Part shown: positions 29,778 to 34,803 of the stretch, piece after piece
Numbering within the stretch: the first letter of the stretch is position 1
How the letters are laid out: every line of letters starts with the position of its first letter
From: Lachnospiraceae bacterium
GTDB lineage: Bacteria > Bacillota > Clostridia > Lachnospirales > Lachnospiraceae
Assembly (NCBI GenBank): GCA_017625815.1
Contig: JAGAKD010000180.1
Location: 1-34,875, forward strand
DNA: 34,875 nucleotides
Direction of reading: 5' to 3'
Notes under the pieces: model-generated
What the model saw: the letters and a program-made list of their open reading frames with translations, nothing else
What the model was told of the DNA's origin: nothing
The model's database searches: none
Made by a program: the position numbers and the translations under genes

Positions 29778-30875
29778 CTATACATTAAACTTAAACAAGA
29801 TTACATCTCCATCTTGTACAACATACTCCTTACCTTCCTGACGAACAAGTCCTTTTTCCTTTGCAGCAAGCATACTACCACTTTCCATAAGTGCATCATA
29901 TGCTACAACCTCAGCTTTGATAAAGCCTCATTCAAAATCAGTATGTATTTTACCTGCTGCCTGTGGAGCCTTTGTACCCTTTGTTATTGTCCAAGCTCTT
30001 GTCTCATCCTCACCAGATGTAAGATAGCTTATGAGACCTAAAAGTGAGTAGCTTGCCTTAATAAGCTTATCCAAACCAGACTCACTTACTCCTAACTCCT
30101 CAAGGAACATCTGCTTCTCATCCTCATCAAGCTCTGATATCTCCTGCTCTATCTGAGCACACACAGCAAATACCTCGCTACCGAACTCTGCAGCATATGC
30201 CTTAACCTTAGAAACGTATTCATTGGAAGCTCCATCATCAGCAAGATCATCTTCTGATACATTGGCTGCATATATAACTGGTTTTCCAGTGAGTAAATTG
30301 TACTCTTTAAGCCACTTAATCTCATCCTCATCATCTGTTTCAAAAGATATAGCAAGCTTAGATTCCTCTAAGTGGGTCTTTATCTTCTTCTGAAGTTCAA
30401 GTTCCTTAGCGAGCATCTTGTTATTGTTAGCTCCCTTTGTGGTCTTAGCAATTCTTCTTTCGAGAACCTCTATATCCGCAAAAATAAGCTCGTAATTGAT
30501 AGTCTCTATATCTCTAATAGGATCAACTGAGCCATCTACATGAATAACATTTGAATCCTCAAAACATCTAACCACATGAACGATGGCATCTGTCTCACGA
30601 ATATTAGAAAGGAACTGATTGCCAAGTCCTTCACCCTTAGATGCACCTTTCACAAGACCTGCAATATCAACAAATTCTATAACTGCTGGTGTTGTCTTGG
30701 CTGAGTTATACATCTTAGTAAGCTCATCAAGTCTTTTATCTGGAACTGGCACTATACCAACATTTGGATCAATAGTACAGAATGGATAGTTTGCAGATTC
30801 TGCCCCAGCCTTAGTTAATGAATTAAATAATGTACTTTTACCTACGTTCGGTAATCCAACGATTCCCAATTTCAT
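29778..30875 (-). pseudogene. ychF: Ribosome-binding ATPase YchF, interrupted by one in-frame TGA
   Basis: Obg-family P-loop protein that prefers ATP and binds ribosomes. The open part is 315 residues: GLPNVGKSTLFN, NYPFCTIDPNVGIVPVPDKR, DIAGLVKGASKGEGLGNQFL and the atypical NVSE specificity motif. It then meets TGA at 29930-29928 in the conserved stretch HTDFE-stop-GFIKAEVVAYD. The frame continues without error for 49 more residues, through EGKEYVVQDGDVILFKFNV to TAG at 29780-29778. With the stop read as one residue the product is 365 aa, the normal family length. The lost part is the end of the TGS domain. The lost codon is normally Arg; AGA to TGA is one base. The intact frame beyond suggests a recent mutation, a sequence error, or readthrough; a reassigned code is unlikely as murD in this window stops at TGA. 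AGAGG precedes the ATG. Confidence 0.93.
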
Positions 30876-31011: not shown

Positions 31012-31049
31012 GATATATGTTAATGATTTACAGAAAGGCGCCTGATAAT

Positions 31050-32600
31050 TTGAAATCACCACATTCAAGACTAAAAAGTAAATTTTCAGAAAAATTTTCA
31101 GAAACAATGAAGGCCGTTGTGCCAATTCTAGCAATTGTGTTGCTTCTTTGTTTTACTATAGCACCTATACCACCAAGCATATTAATGACCTTCTTAGTGG
31201 GTGCCACTTTACTAATCATAGGTATGTTATTCTTTAATGTAGGCGTCGAACTCTCTATGACCCCTATCGGCGAGAGAACTGGTACTATTATGACCAAATC
31301 TAAAAACCTATTTATAATCATCGTTGTCAGCTTTGTAATGGGATTTGTTATCACTATATCTGAACCTGATTTACAGGTTCTTGCAGAACAGGTTCCATCA
31401 ATTCCAAATATAACATTGATATTAGCAGTTGCCGCAGGAGTGGCTTTGTTTTTGGTTATTGCTATCCTTCGTATGCTTCTTAGCATTCCACTTTCATATC
31501 TATTGTTATTTTTCTACATAATTATATTTGCTTTTACACCATTTGTAGCAAAAGACTTTTTGTCTGTTGCCTTTGATTCTGGTGGTGTTACCACTGGACC
31601 TATGACAGTTCCGTTTATTATGGCTTTTGGTATTGGTATATCTGCTATCCGAAGCGATAAGCACGCCGCCAATGATAGTTTTGGTTTGGTTTCTATGTGT
31701 TCTATTGGACCTATTCTTGCAGTTATGCTTTTAGGAATTATATACACACCAGAATCCACTGAACAGGTTTCAGATTCTATTCCGGAAATTGCAAACACTG
31801 TGGATTTATGGAAGCTATTTTCCACAGAACTACCTACATACATTCACGAAATTGCTATCTCATTATTGCCAATCGTAGGCTTCTTCACTATTATGCAACT
31901 CATAGTGAGGGATATCAACAAAACTACTATACTCAAGATTGTTATAGGTATTATTTATACATATATTGGACTCGTACTTTTCCTTACAGGCGTAAACGTA
32001 GGTTTTATGCCAGCTGGTAATTATTTAGGTGCAACTATTGCAGGACTAGACTATTCATGGATTATTATTCCTATCGGTATGATAATTGGTTACTTTATTG
32101 TTAAAGCAGAGCCTGCGGTATTTGTTCTCACCAAACAAGTTGAGGAGCTTACAGACGGCTCCATATCAGCTAAGGCTATGGGAACTTCCCTTTCCTTTGG
32201 TGTTGCAGCATCAGTCGGACTCGCTATGACTAGAGTACTTACAGGTATATCTATCCTATGGTTGCTAATACCCGGATACTTTATTGCTCTAGTGCTTACA
32301 TTTTTTGTACCAAAGATTTTTACAGCTATCGCATTTGACTCCGGTGGAGTTGCATCAGGACCTATGACCGCAACATTTTTACTTCCATTTGCCATGGGCG
32401 CTTGCGAAGCTCTAGGCGGAAATATAGTTGCGGATGCATTTGGTATCGTCTCCATGGTTGCTATGACACCACTTATAGCAATTCAGATTATGGGACTTGT
32501 CTACAGAATTAAAGACAATAAACTACACAAAGAATTGGCAAGTCAAGCAGATCAGGCTATGCTTGCTTCATATGGGGATATGGAAATTATCGAATTATAA
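31050..32600 (+). CDS. DUF1538 family membrane protein (transporter-like)
   Basis: About 516 residues with a dozen or so hydrophobic segments. It has two similar halves about 250 residues apart: AFDSGGVTTGPMT and AFDSGGVASGPMT; LFFNVGVELSM and LFLTGVNVGFM; SEPDLQVLAEQV and AEPAVFVLTKQV. This is a DUF1538 tandem, a fold plan typical of transporters built by duplication. Function and substrate are unknown. Start: I prefer TTG at 31050 with AAAGG about 11 bases upstream; the ATG at 31017 lacks a ribosome site and sits at the predicted transcription start. It is followed after 12 bases by a P-II-like gene, so regulation by a small-molecule sensor is likely, as in AmtB-GlnK or SbtA-SbtB. This link is inferred. 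Confidence 0.85.
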   Translation: MKSPHSRLKSKFSEKFSETMKAVVPILAIVLLLCFTIAPIPPSILMTFLVGATLLIIGMLFFNVGVELSMTPIGERTGTIMTKSKNLFIIIVVSFVMGFVITISEPDLQVLAEQVPSIPNITLILAVAAGVALFLVIAILRMLLSIPLSYLLLFFYIIIFAFTPFVAKDFLSVAFDSGGVTTGPMTVPFIMAFGIGISAIRSDKHAANDSFGLVSMCSIGPILAVMLLGIIYTPESTEQVSDSIPEIANTVDLWKLFSTELPTYIHEIAISLLPIVGFFTIMQLIVRDINKTTILKIVIGIIYTYIGLVLFLTGVNVGFMPAGNYLGATIAGLDYSWIIIPIGMIIGYFIVKAEPAVFVLTKQVEELTDGSISAKAMGTSLSFGVAASVGLAMTRVLTGISILWLLIPGYFIALVLTFFVPKIFTAIAFDSGGVASGPMTATFLLPFAMGACEALGGNIVADAFGIVSMVAMTPLIAIQIMGLVYRIKDNKLHKELASQADQAMLASYGDMEIIEL

Positions 32601-32612
32601 TAAGGAGGACAT

Positions 32613-33290
32613 ATGGGTAATTTGTATATGATGACCACTATAGTGGACAGAAAAATTGCATCAGAATATGCTAAACTATATCAAGAAAATAATCTAAACG
32701 TTATGTTCCTCTCTTTGGGATATGGAACAGTAACCAATGATATGATGGATATGCTTGGACTGGAATCAAAAGAAAAAACCGTTGTCATTGCCATTATAGA
32801 AGAAGACAAATGGATTACTGTAAAAAGGCAACTAGAAAAGGTTCTTAAAATAGATGCTCCCGGAGGCGGAGTTGCATTTATTGTTCCACTTAGTAGCATA
32901 GGCGGTAGAAAAGCATTACAATTTTTGATTGAAAATGATAAATATGAAAGACAGGAGGAAACCACATTGAAGAATACAACTCACGATTTGATAGTAGTTA
33001 TTGCAGAGCTTGGATATACTAATCTTATTATGGATGCTGCCAGAAAAGCTGGCGCATATGGCGGTACCGTAATCCATGCCAAAGGCACAGGGATGGCTGC
33101 TGCCGAAAAATTTATGGGTGTTTCTCTTGCAGCAGAAAAAGAGGTTATATACATAGTAGTTAAAAACGAACAGAAAAATCCTATTATGCAGGCAATTATG
33201 GAAGAAGCTGGTATCAATACAAAAGCAAAAGCAATCTGCTTCTCTCTCCCAGTTACTGATACAGCAGGTCTTAGACTTGTGGAGGATTAA
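32613..33290 (+). CDS. Tandem P-II-like signalling protein
   Basis: 225 residues, twice the length of one P-II domain (about 112). Two ferredoxin-like repeats can be seen: residues 1-115 (…APGGGVAFIVPLSSIGG) and 120-225 (…DAARKAGAYGGTVIHAKGTG…EKEVIYIVV). In the second, GAYGGTVIHAKG is the usual P-II/PII-like start of the T loop, but the T loop has no equivalent of the uridylylated Tyr of GlnB, and the first copy has diverged further. P-II proteins bind ATP/ADP and 2-oxoglutarate or cyclic nucleotides and gate transporters. A strong AAGGAGG lies 5 bases before the ATG, 12 bases after the DUF1538 gene, so both are one operon. Ligand unknown. Confidence 0.85.
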   Translation: MGNLYMMTTIVDRKIASEYAKLYQENNLNVMFLSLGYGTVTNDMMDMLGLESKEKTVVIAIIEEDKWITVKRQLEKVLKIDAPGGGVAFIVPLSSIGGRKALQFLIENDKYERQEETTLKNTTHDLIVVIAELGYTNLIMDAARKAGAYGGTVIHAKGTGMAAAEKFMGVSLAAEKEVIYIVVKNEQKNPIMQAIMEEAGINTKAKAICFSLPVTDTAGLRLVED

Positions 33291-33296
33291 GGACAT

Positions 33297-33337
33297 AAAA
33301 AGTCAGCCGTTATATTTCCACTAACGGCTGACTTTTT
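33297..33337. terminator. Bidirectional intrinsic terminator
   Basis: AAAAAGTCAGCCGTTA / TAACGGCTGACTTTTT pairs over 16 bases with a 9-base loop; A and T runs on both sides. It ends the DUF1538/P-II operon and the convergent PadR operon. Confidence 0.93.
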
Positions 33338-33387: not shown

Positions 33388-34476
33388 TTACTTATACTGC
33401 TCATAATACTCCACTACATCTATACCCTTTTCTTCACACTCAGCTAAAATAACTCTATAGGATTCGTTCTGTTCCTTATTGAACTTAAGAAACCATCTGA
33501 ACAAGAAAATACCAACCACTCCCATTATTACAAAATGTATTGCTGCTAACATCATATTTCCAGTTATTGCTTCACTAAGCGCTGGACCAATTACAAATAT
33601 AACTATACATACACCAGCAAAAATATTATATGCTTTCTCGGCATCAATATCCTTTTGTACATGTTTTGCATAATCAGCCTGAGTAAACTCAATACCCTTC
33701 TTAGCCTTTTTCTTCTTAAGGCGCTTATATCTAAAAGCCATACCAGATGCAACATCCTTAAGACCACCCTTGAAGGCCACCTCTTCCTCAAATTCTTTTT
33801 TTATCCTTTTATCTTCCCTATCCAAATTCTTCAATGTTCCATTCTTCTTATAGCTAATAATTATAAATGCAAGATTAATTCCAACTGCTAATATTCCTGA
33901 CACAATAAGAACTATATACAAAGGAAGGTTTATATCCACCTTGTCGCCAAGTACACTAACTCCACCAATAATTCCTGTAACAAACAACACCAACACTATA
34001 ATGTAATATACAATAGGGTGCGCTTTATTCTTTTTGAAGGTAAGAAATTTATTAACAAACTTTCCGAATGCCATTAATATAAATCCCACAACCAGACCTA
34101 ACACGATAGGGAACAAATCTATCTTACTTTTCATAAAGGAATTTCCTTCAGCCACATCTATGGCAAGCTCAATAATGCTGTATATAAATGTCACCGTCAT
34201 TATCCATCCGAAGCTACCAAAAAACTTTCCTAGCTTGTGTCCCTTATCCTCAACTGTAAAATATTTCTTACAAAACATCTCAATATCATCGCCAATTATC
34301 TTATCAACTGGTTTTTCCTCACTTTGTGCCTGAATAAACATATCGTAAAGGTTAGTCATTCTATCCTCGTATATGTCATTATCAATATTTCCCATACTTC
34401 CATATAGGTCAATTTTCTCAAAAGCTTCTTTGTATTCACCCTTTAAAAGGTTTGCCATAGCAATTGTATTTAACAT
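33388..34476 (-). CDS. PadR-partner membrane protein
   Basis: 362 residues. An N-terminal soluble helical region (about 1-100) containing IIGDDIEMFCKKYF, a stretch like the HAAS/DUF1048 sensor domains found beside PadR regulators, then four hydrophobic segments (about 106-220), a basic helical loop and two more segments near the C-terminus. Such proteins are thought to be membrane partners in stress response to antibiotics or envelope damage. AAAGGAG precedes the ATG. The gene starts 3 bases after the PadR stop codon, so the pair is one unit. I give no specific function. Confidence 0.75.
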   Translation of the reverse strand: MLNTIAMANLLKGEYKEAFEKIDLYGSMGNIDNDIYEDRMTNLYDMFIQAQSEEKPVDKIIGDDIEMFCKKYFTVEDKGHKLGKFFGSFGWIMTVTFIYSIIELAIDVAEGNSFMKSKIDLFPIVLGLVVGFILMAFGKFVNKFLTFKKNKAHPIVYYIIVLVLFVTGIIGGVSVLGDKVDINLPLYIVLIVSGILAVGINLAFIIISYKKNGTLKNLDREDKRIKKEFEEEVAFKGGLKDVASGMAFRYKRLKKKKAKKGIEFTQADYAKHVQKDIDAEKAYNIFAGVCIVIFVIGPALSEAITGNMMLAAIHFVIMGVVGIFLFRWFLKFNKEQNESYRVILAECEEKGIDVVEYYEQYK

Positions 34477-34479
34477 ATT

Positions 34480-34803
34480 TTACTCCTTTCCAAACAAAAC
34501 TCTATTGGTGCTATCTGTTATATTCTTATAATTTTCCTTAAAGCCCTCAAGCCTTTCAATGCCAGTCACCGTTATTGTGTAATATTTTCTAATAGGCCCA
34601 AGGGGTGACTTAGCCTTTCTACAGGATATATATCCATTCTTATCTAGTCTTGTTAAAACCGGATACAAGGTTCCCTCTCCCAAGTCCGAAAATCCTACCT
34701 TTTCCATCTCAGTGAGTATCTCATATCCATAGGTTTCACCATTACTAATAACAGATAACACACAACCCTCTAGTATACCTTTCATCAATTGTGTATCGTC
34801 CAT
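34480..34803 (-). CDS. PadR-family transcriptional regulator
   Basis: 107 residues. A winged-helix protein: GVLSVISNGETYGYEI-like start (LEGCVLSVISNGETYGYEI), then EGTLYPVLTRLDKNGYI as recognition helix and wing, and a short C-terminal helix for dimerisation. PadR proteins usually repress their own operon and a membrane partner. AGGAGG lies 5 bases before the ATG. It is first in a two-gene operon with the membrane protein. Likely autorepressed through sites in the region at 34830-34869. Confidence 0.93.
   Translation of the reverse strand: MDDTQLMKGILEGCVLSVISNGETYGYEILTEMEKVGFSDLGEGTLYPVLTRLDKNGYISCRKAKSPLGPIRKYYTITVTGIERLEGFKENYKNITDSTNRVLFGKE

Follow-up and report, generated by a model that had tools for sequence, protein, structure and literature searches.

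What does a membrane protein made of two copies of one domain do next to a fused double P-II protein, and does the second protein serve the first? The question is raised by a locus in the genome of a Lachnospiraceae MAG (87% complete), contained in a stretch of 34,875 nucleotides that is referred to in what follows as the window. An initial annotation had described the membrane protein as an uncharacterized transporter with a dedicated sensor. The first part of that description must be amended, as the domain concerned, DUF1538, is that of UmpAB, already known as a Na+(Li+,K+)/H+ antiporter (excerpts of PMC5484666).

The locus and its membrane protein

On the + strand an ORF at 31017..32600 encodes a 527 aa DUF1538 (UmpA-UmpB-like) membrane protein in which two halves are fused, as judged from PF07556, which matches twice, and from an AlphaFold2 model; its true start codon may be located slightly further downstream. 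The tandem P-II protein of 225 aa follows at 32613..33290 (+; ORF, PF00543, AlphaFold2 model and PDB fold matches), and the 12-base gap between the two ORFs contains the ribosome-binding site AAGGAGG (32602..32608, +). The gap and the fused double P-II behind it are as first described, the latter on the evidence of a PF00543 match of the C half, hhalign and the model. A terminator-like hairpin lies 3' of the P-II gene (33297..33337, +; 16 pairs, -21.9 kcal/mol, z -6.67) and is followed by a U run; it was missed in a pattern scan because its loop of 9 falls outside the scanned range of 3-8. Both flanking genes, one ychF-like and the other coding for a membrane protein that DUF1048 matches weakly, run antiparallel, and DUF1538 plus P-II looks like a closed two-gene operon. 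A promoter-like scan gave 11 hits against a shuffle mean of 11.2, hence no excess. One DUF1538 gene and one PF00543 match were found in the window genome at its 87% completeness.

Two observations concern the neighbors themselves. The YchF-like GTPase ORF (29928-30875, -) is matched by only positions 1-35 of the 84 of the YchF C-terminal domain and therefore looks truncated or frameshifted in the assembly. At 33388-34803 (-) a PadR regulator and the membrane protein with the weak DUF1048 match form a separate pair, convergent with the operon.

PF07556 covers the DUF1538 protein in two stretches with an overall score of 461.5 bits (cut-off 22.6, E 3.5e-139), and the two-fold repeat with a motif in each half that had been noticed at the outset is borne out. 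The first, UmpA-like half (31125..31742, +) is predicted from PF07556, a domain-tree split with support 0.999 and charge bias to have its N-terminus inside, and the second, UmpB-like half (31872..32501, +) is predicted from PF07556 and charge bias to have the opposite orientation. The first half scores best with UmpA. Scores with NF041627 and NF041628, the UmpA/UmpB equivalogs, are 158.7 against a cut-off of 490 and 124 against 500 bits, so far below these limits that the protein is to be regarded as a relative and not a member; a split DUF1538 pair of Methylocystis likewise falls short.

In the AlphaFold2 model (49-row alignment, pLDDT 82.6) helices are broken near E116-P117, near E365-P366, and at or just past the DSGG motifs, which form part of AFDSGGVTTGPMT in the first half (31569..31607, +; residues 185-197) and AFDSGGVASGPMT in the second (32331..32369, +; residues 439-451). 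Among 16 diverse DUF1538 proteins G190, T192, T193 and G194 of the first motif are invariant and D187 nearly so, D441, G443, A446 and G448 of the second are invariant, and so are E116, E365 and P366, with P117 nearly invariant. By analogy with UmpAB, the conserved acidic residues E116/D187 and E365/D441 are put forward as candidates for binding an ion or proton. A Foldseek search of the PDB with the model gave no significant match (best E 0.045), so that a mechanism argued from the fold lacks support, and the DUF1538 profile had no match among PDB sequences, so that no sequence relation to SbtA is seen. The C-terminal tail (32577-32597) ends in DMEIIEL, with D521, I524, I525 and L527 conserved in 90% or more of 49 close homologues, and is a possible docking peptide for P-II. 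Two unusual architectures were set aside: DUF1538 proteins of 663-692 aa (P0121-P0123) are the same protein duplicated internally and probably assembly artefacts, and an apparent P-II/DUF1538 gene fusion at L156 was ruled out, the stretch containing masked bases.

The relation between the halves emerges from the family as a whole. In a tree of 225 DUF1538 domains all first halves are separated from the second halves (support 0.999), and single-gene members are placed among the first. With loops defined in our own way, from the model and hydropathy, the K+R bias in alternate loops of fused proteins amounts to +5.54 in the first half and -4.19 in the second, 63/63 each way, and in split pairs to +3.8 for the first (44/44 positive) and -2.07 for the second (39/44 negative, 3 positive). 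Opposite biases of this sort predict inverted repeats, and they are of the antiparallel kind according to the ranges in excerpts of PMC3962082, where antiparallel pairs have bias sizes of 6 to 7 and dual-topology proteins values of -2 to +1. For single-gene DUF1538 (n=11, one clade) the bias is +1.18 in loops and +3.45 with termini, range -2 to 9; the loop value suggests dual topology, a suggestion that weakens when the termini are included.

Association of DUF1538 with P-II across genomes

We surveyed 299 genomes of the phylum, with DUF1538 in 101 and PF00543 in 220. PF00543 is present in 100/101 genomes that have DUF1538 as compared with 120/198 that do not, and in the sole DUF1538 genome without P-II (G056) the DUF1538 stretch is broken by in-frame stops, two TAG and four TAA. 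Synteny was evaluated in 112 regions around DUF1538 from 100 genomes, the window genome being left out; these comprise 115 modules, a number of which are cut at the 5' side, and P-II genes were sought in them with iterated and domain profiles. Three modules are cut 3' by a contig end, and in 109 of the remaining 112 P-II lies directly downstream, on the same strand in 109/109. The three that lack a downstream P-II are the broken copy of G056, L087, for which a tandem P-II of the DUF1538 type lies on another contig of the genome, and L051, a lone first DUF1538 half with a piece of P-II upstream. No other neighbor recurs to a comparable extent, the commonest other family being found in 12/112 loci.

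A profile of the DUF1538-type P-II (limit 1e-8) matches 102 genomes, that is 100/101 with DUF1538 and 2/198 without, the latter being G001, at 9.1e-9, and G049, through a 64-residue piece. Because 17 survey loci and the window went into the profile, and because the surveyed genomes are related, the Fisher value of 2e-76 overstates the evidence; the co-occurrence pattern itself does not depend on that value. The neighborhood survey that the initial annotation had proposed finds the pairing conserved in those of the 299 genomes that have DUF1538, and synteny and co-occurrence together strongly support its dedicated transporter/P-II pair.

The pairing was also seen in other kinds of record. DUF1538 is present in 9 plasmid records, and P-II adjoins it in 7/7 of those examined, including Chelativorans and Methylocystis (Alphaproteobacteria), where the DUF1538 genes are split and the P-II has a single domain. 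Seven 'phage' records contain DUF1538, and the 2 examined have the gene order of the phylum. All of 13 further loci, picked through their P-II, show the pairing; one scan of viral contigs gave no locus and another gave one, cut by a contig end. Within Lachnospiraceae DUF1538 occurs in 61/200 genomes.

Several records merit comment on their own account. The DUF1538-P-II genes of 'Listeria phage' (L165) and 'Bacteriophage sp.' (L166) are probably bacterial DNA in assemblies, and the 2.6 Mb 'plasmid' of Acetoanaerobium noterae (L162) is probably a mislabeled chromosome. Two modules stand back to back in L075, L078 and L088, a further tandem P-II accompanies the single-gene module in G040 and G082, that of G082 belonging to a fused module, and an RNase P RNA gene is located near the module in five loci (L058, L065, L081, L086 and L093).

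DUF1538 is encoded by single genes, by gene pairs and by fused genes. In a set of 118 modules, 11 have a single DUF1538 with one P-II, 62 a fused DUF1538 with two P-II domains and one a fused DUF1538 with none, and the 44 split pairs are divided between two P-II domains (19) and one P-II (25). The P-II is of the tandem, fused double form in 75/118 modules, and its initial description as unusual does not apply to this subfamily. We considered a rule by which the number of P-II domains equals that of DUF1538 domains; single (11/11) and fused (62/63) modules fit, and the split pairs, 25 vs 19, break the fit. On the tree the DUF1538 state changes 2 times and the P-II state 4 times, with the one P-II-less module counted as two, and with so few independent events the match is kept as no more than an idea. 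New here are the opposite bias of the halves, the single, paired and fused gene forms, and the finding that tandem P-II is common in the family.

Sensor domains, riboswitches and alternative readings

The PF00543 cut-off is passed by residues 126-221 of the P-II protein only (37.4 bits vs 25). The N half goes unrecognized by Pfam and is homologous to the C half (hhalign probability 99.6, E 1.3e-24, 99 columns), giving an N domain of residues 1-112 (32613..32948, +; hhalign N vs C 99.6%) and a C domain of residues 113-225 (32949..33287, +). In the AlphaFold2 model (mean pLDDT 78, from an alignment of 69 rows) strands and helices follow in like order in both halves, and with the PDB fold matches the predicted structure displays the ferredoxin-like fold of P-II that the initial annotation had led one to expect. 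In the PDB comparison the C domain is close to AMP- and cAMP-bound SbtB, and in sequence the N half reaches SbtB chains at no better than E 0.29 to 0.43. PF00543 is matched at E 0.01 by 69/69 proteins of P-II set A4; PF06153, the Pfam family of the c-di-AMP receptor PstA/DarA, is not among the families that these proteins match at that threshold.

How well the nucleotide site has been preserved bears on whether the protein senses anything at all. In the C domain the B-loop is worn to TKAKA (33219-33233, +) in place of PGxG, and the full GxG is found in just 146/198 domains of the family. The column aligned with Lys90 holds Ile in 180, Val in 11 and Leu in 7, so that Lys90 is absent in 198/198, unlike GlnK-type P-II, which touches the ATP phosphate through this residue (excerpts of PMC8395244). 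The loss of GxG in the C domain and the family-wide absence of Lys90 render nucleotide binding uncertain, and with an N half unseen by PF00543 they are what one would expect if the tandem P-II were a structural or assembly subunit, with a worn-out binding site and no ligand sensing. We regard such a role as improbable, since the second B-loop Gly is present in 183/198 domains and the PGGG of the N domain (32859-32870, +) in 120/120 close homologues, suggesting a retained site; the wider PGxG is found within the first 110 residues in 116/120. For the equivalent of the 2-oxoglutarate residue Lys58 two alignments that are one residue apart give K176 and E175.

A modifiable T-loop Tyr is a trait of the classical nitrogen P-II proteins GlnB and GlnK. 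The window protein has no Tyr in either T loop save Y37 of GYGT at the base of the first, confirming an earlier remark to this effect; the residue is missing at both T-loop tips and, with Lys90 also lacking, neither classical trait is found. Across the family Tyr occurs somewhere in 42/181 parsed T loops, 17 of the 198 loops being unparsed. Wherever sources name the matches the subfamily is called 'P-II family nitrogen regulator', a label that would suit a general nitrogen sensor of the cell whose position beside DUF1538 is incidental. We strongly disfavor that possibility and consider it highly improbable: adjacency in 109/112 modules and near-perfect co-occurrence argue against it, as do the absence of Lys90 and of a T-loop-tip Tyr. 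No ammonium transporter was found in the window genome (87% complete) and no second PF00543 match, which makes a nitrogen/Amt role unlikely.

A further alternative retains the dedicated P-II and changes what is transported. A c-di-AMP riboswitch (RF00379) is located directly 5' of the DUF1538-P-II operon, in sense, in L073 (5452-5579, -) and L125 (5491-5638, -), whose genomes are of different families; in L050 such a riboswitch lies downstream of the module. Riboswitches of this class are linked to K+ homeostasis. Na+ and Li+ riboswitches, which are represented in Rfam, were not detected in Rfam scans at gathering scores over 112 survey loci, the window and 10 further loci. The riboswitch upstream of DUF1538, spotted post hoc at 2 loci, is a lead only, pointing to ion homeostasis with K+ uptake also possible. 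Together with UmpA/UmpB equivalog scores below the cut-offs, these observations would be accommodated by a DUF1538 branch that transports something else or works in another direction, taking up K+ or another solute, for instance, instead of extruding cations. This we judge rather unlikely. The riboswitch is common (190/299 phylum genomes) and is absent from the window, nor was it found in the window genome, which does have a diadenylate cyclase gene; among 200 Lachnospiraceae genomes it occurs in 6, of which 5 have DUF1538, with riboswitch and DUF1538 on one contig in 0/5. Moreover, the only characterized DUF1538 proteins that our literature search found are Na+(Li+,K+)/H+ antiporters (excerpts of PMC5484666).

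Proposed gating and comparison with known transporters

The locus is best read as a further case of a transporter gated by P-II, one whose transporter belongs to a family new to this role and whose sensor is tandem. More specifically we favor, with a moderate degree of confidence, a two-gene operon for a likely DUF1538 Na+/K+-H+ antiporter with predicted inverted halves and a dedicated cytosolic tandem P-II that gates it on nucleotide binding. Cytosolic regulation by P-II is proposed because of the near-invariant pairing, the P-II fold, and the precedents of AmtB-GlnK and SbtA-SbtB. In such a scheme DUF1538 would exchange monovalent cations for protons, as UmpAB does; P-II would dock on its cytosolic face and its T loops might extend to the transport cleft, as suggested by AmtB-GlnK and SbtA-SbtB; and a small ligand, probably an adenine nucleotide, would set the interaction between P-II and DUF1538 so that the antiporter opens or closes.

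A broader reading is put forward tentatively. DUF1538 could be the membrane half of a widespread and unrecognized ligand-gated cation/proton antiporter for which P-II is obligatory, with transporter and sensor each duplicated and fused. An inverted-repeat antiporter would then face a two-domain P-II in which one nucleotide site is live and the other worn, and an adenine-nucleotide signal would be passed directly on to cytosolic pH, Na+ and K+; UmpAB would have been studied without its gate.

Across the phylum the P-II subfamily follows a single membrane family with hardly an exception, and the pairing recurs on two alphaproteobacterial plasmids. If gating of a Na+/K+-H+ antiporter is correct, P-II proteins also act in ion and pH homeostasis, many genes now labeled 'nitrogen regulator' need a different annotation, the 'two-component' antiporter has a regulatory partner, and salt and pH balance are subject to a type of sensor that is most familiar from the uptake of nitrogen and carbon. 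The P-II targets in the excerpts of a 2023 review are ammonium, nitrate, urea and bicarbonate transporters, a cation/proton antiporter not being among them (PMC10710835). In the open-access literature on DUF1538/PF07556/UmpAB, insofar as its text was available (PMC5484666, PMC13255231; subscription papers and preprints outside the scope), no link between DUF1538 and P-II was found, and the nearest approach to P-II with an H+ antiporter in the accessible parts of open-access articles is a cyanobacterial review on SbtB and Nha antiporters.

UmpA and UmpB of Halomonas zhaodongensis form a heterodimer that carries out Na+(Li+,K+)/H+ antiport; each has seven predicted membrane segments and conserved acids, and the two are enough for activity in E. 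coli (excerpts of PMC5484666, a paper that contains none of the words P-II, PII, GlnB, topology and inverted). A dedicated P-II is therefore dispensable for basal activity in that host. The window protein resembles UmpAB in its paired DUF1538 domains, seven predicted segments in each, and conserved acidic residues, but UmpAB is encoded by two separate genes whereas the window has one fused gene with P-II beside it. DUF606-type antiparallel two-domain families also occur in single, paired and fused forms with opposite bias of the halves, like DUF1538, and no P-II partner is mentioned for them in the excerpts of PMC3962082.

Among transporters with a P-II partner, AmtB-GlnK is likewise a pair of transporter and P-II genes, differing in that it serves ammonium transport and that GlnK is under uridylylation control (excerpts of PMC10710835). 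In SbtA-SbtB the AMP-bound, trimeric P-II-like SbtB inserts its T loops into a cleft of the inverted-repeat SbtA (excerpts of PMC8352866 and PMC10710835). The likeness to the present locus is that of a transporter with two inverted repeats and a dedicated P-II-fold protein in one operon (excerpts of PMC8352866); the neighbor of the window P-II is DUF1538, not SbtA, and the P-II is tandem where SbtB is a single-domain protein that forms a trimer. DUF1538 and its P-II offer a clear case in which to ask how a sensor of three-fold symmetry engages a transporter that is two-fold and inverted.
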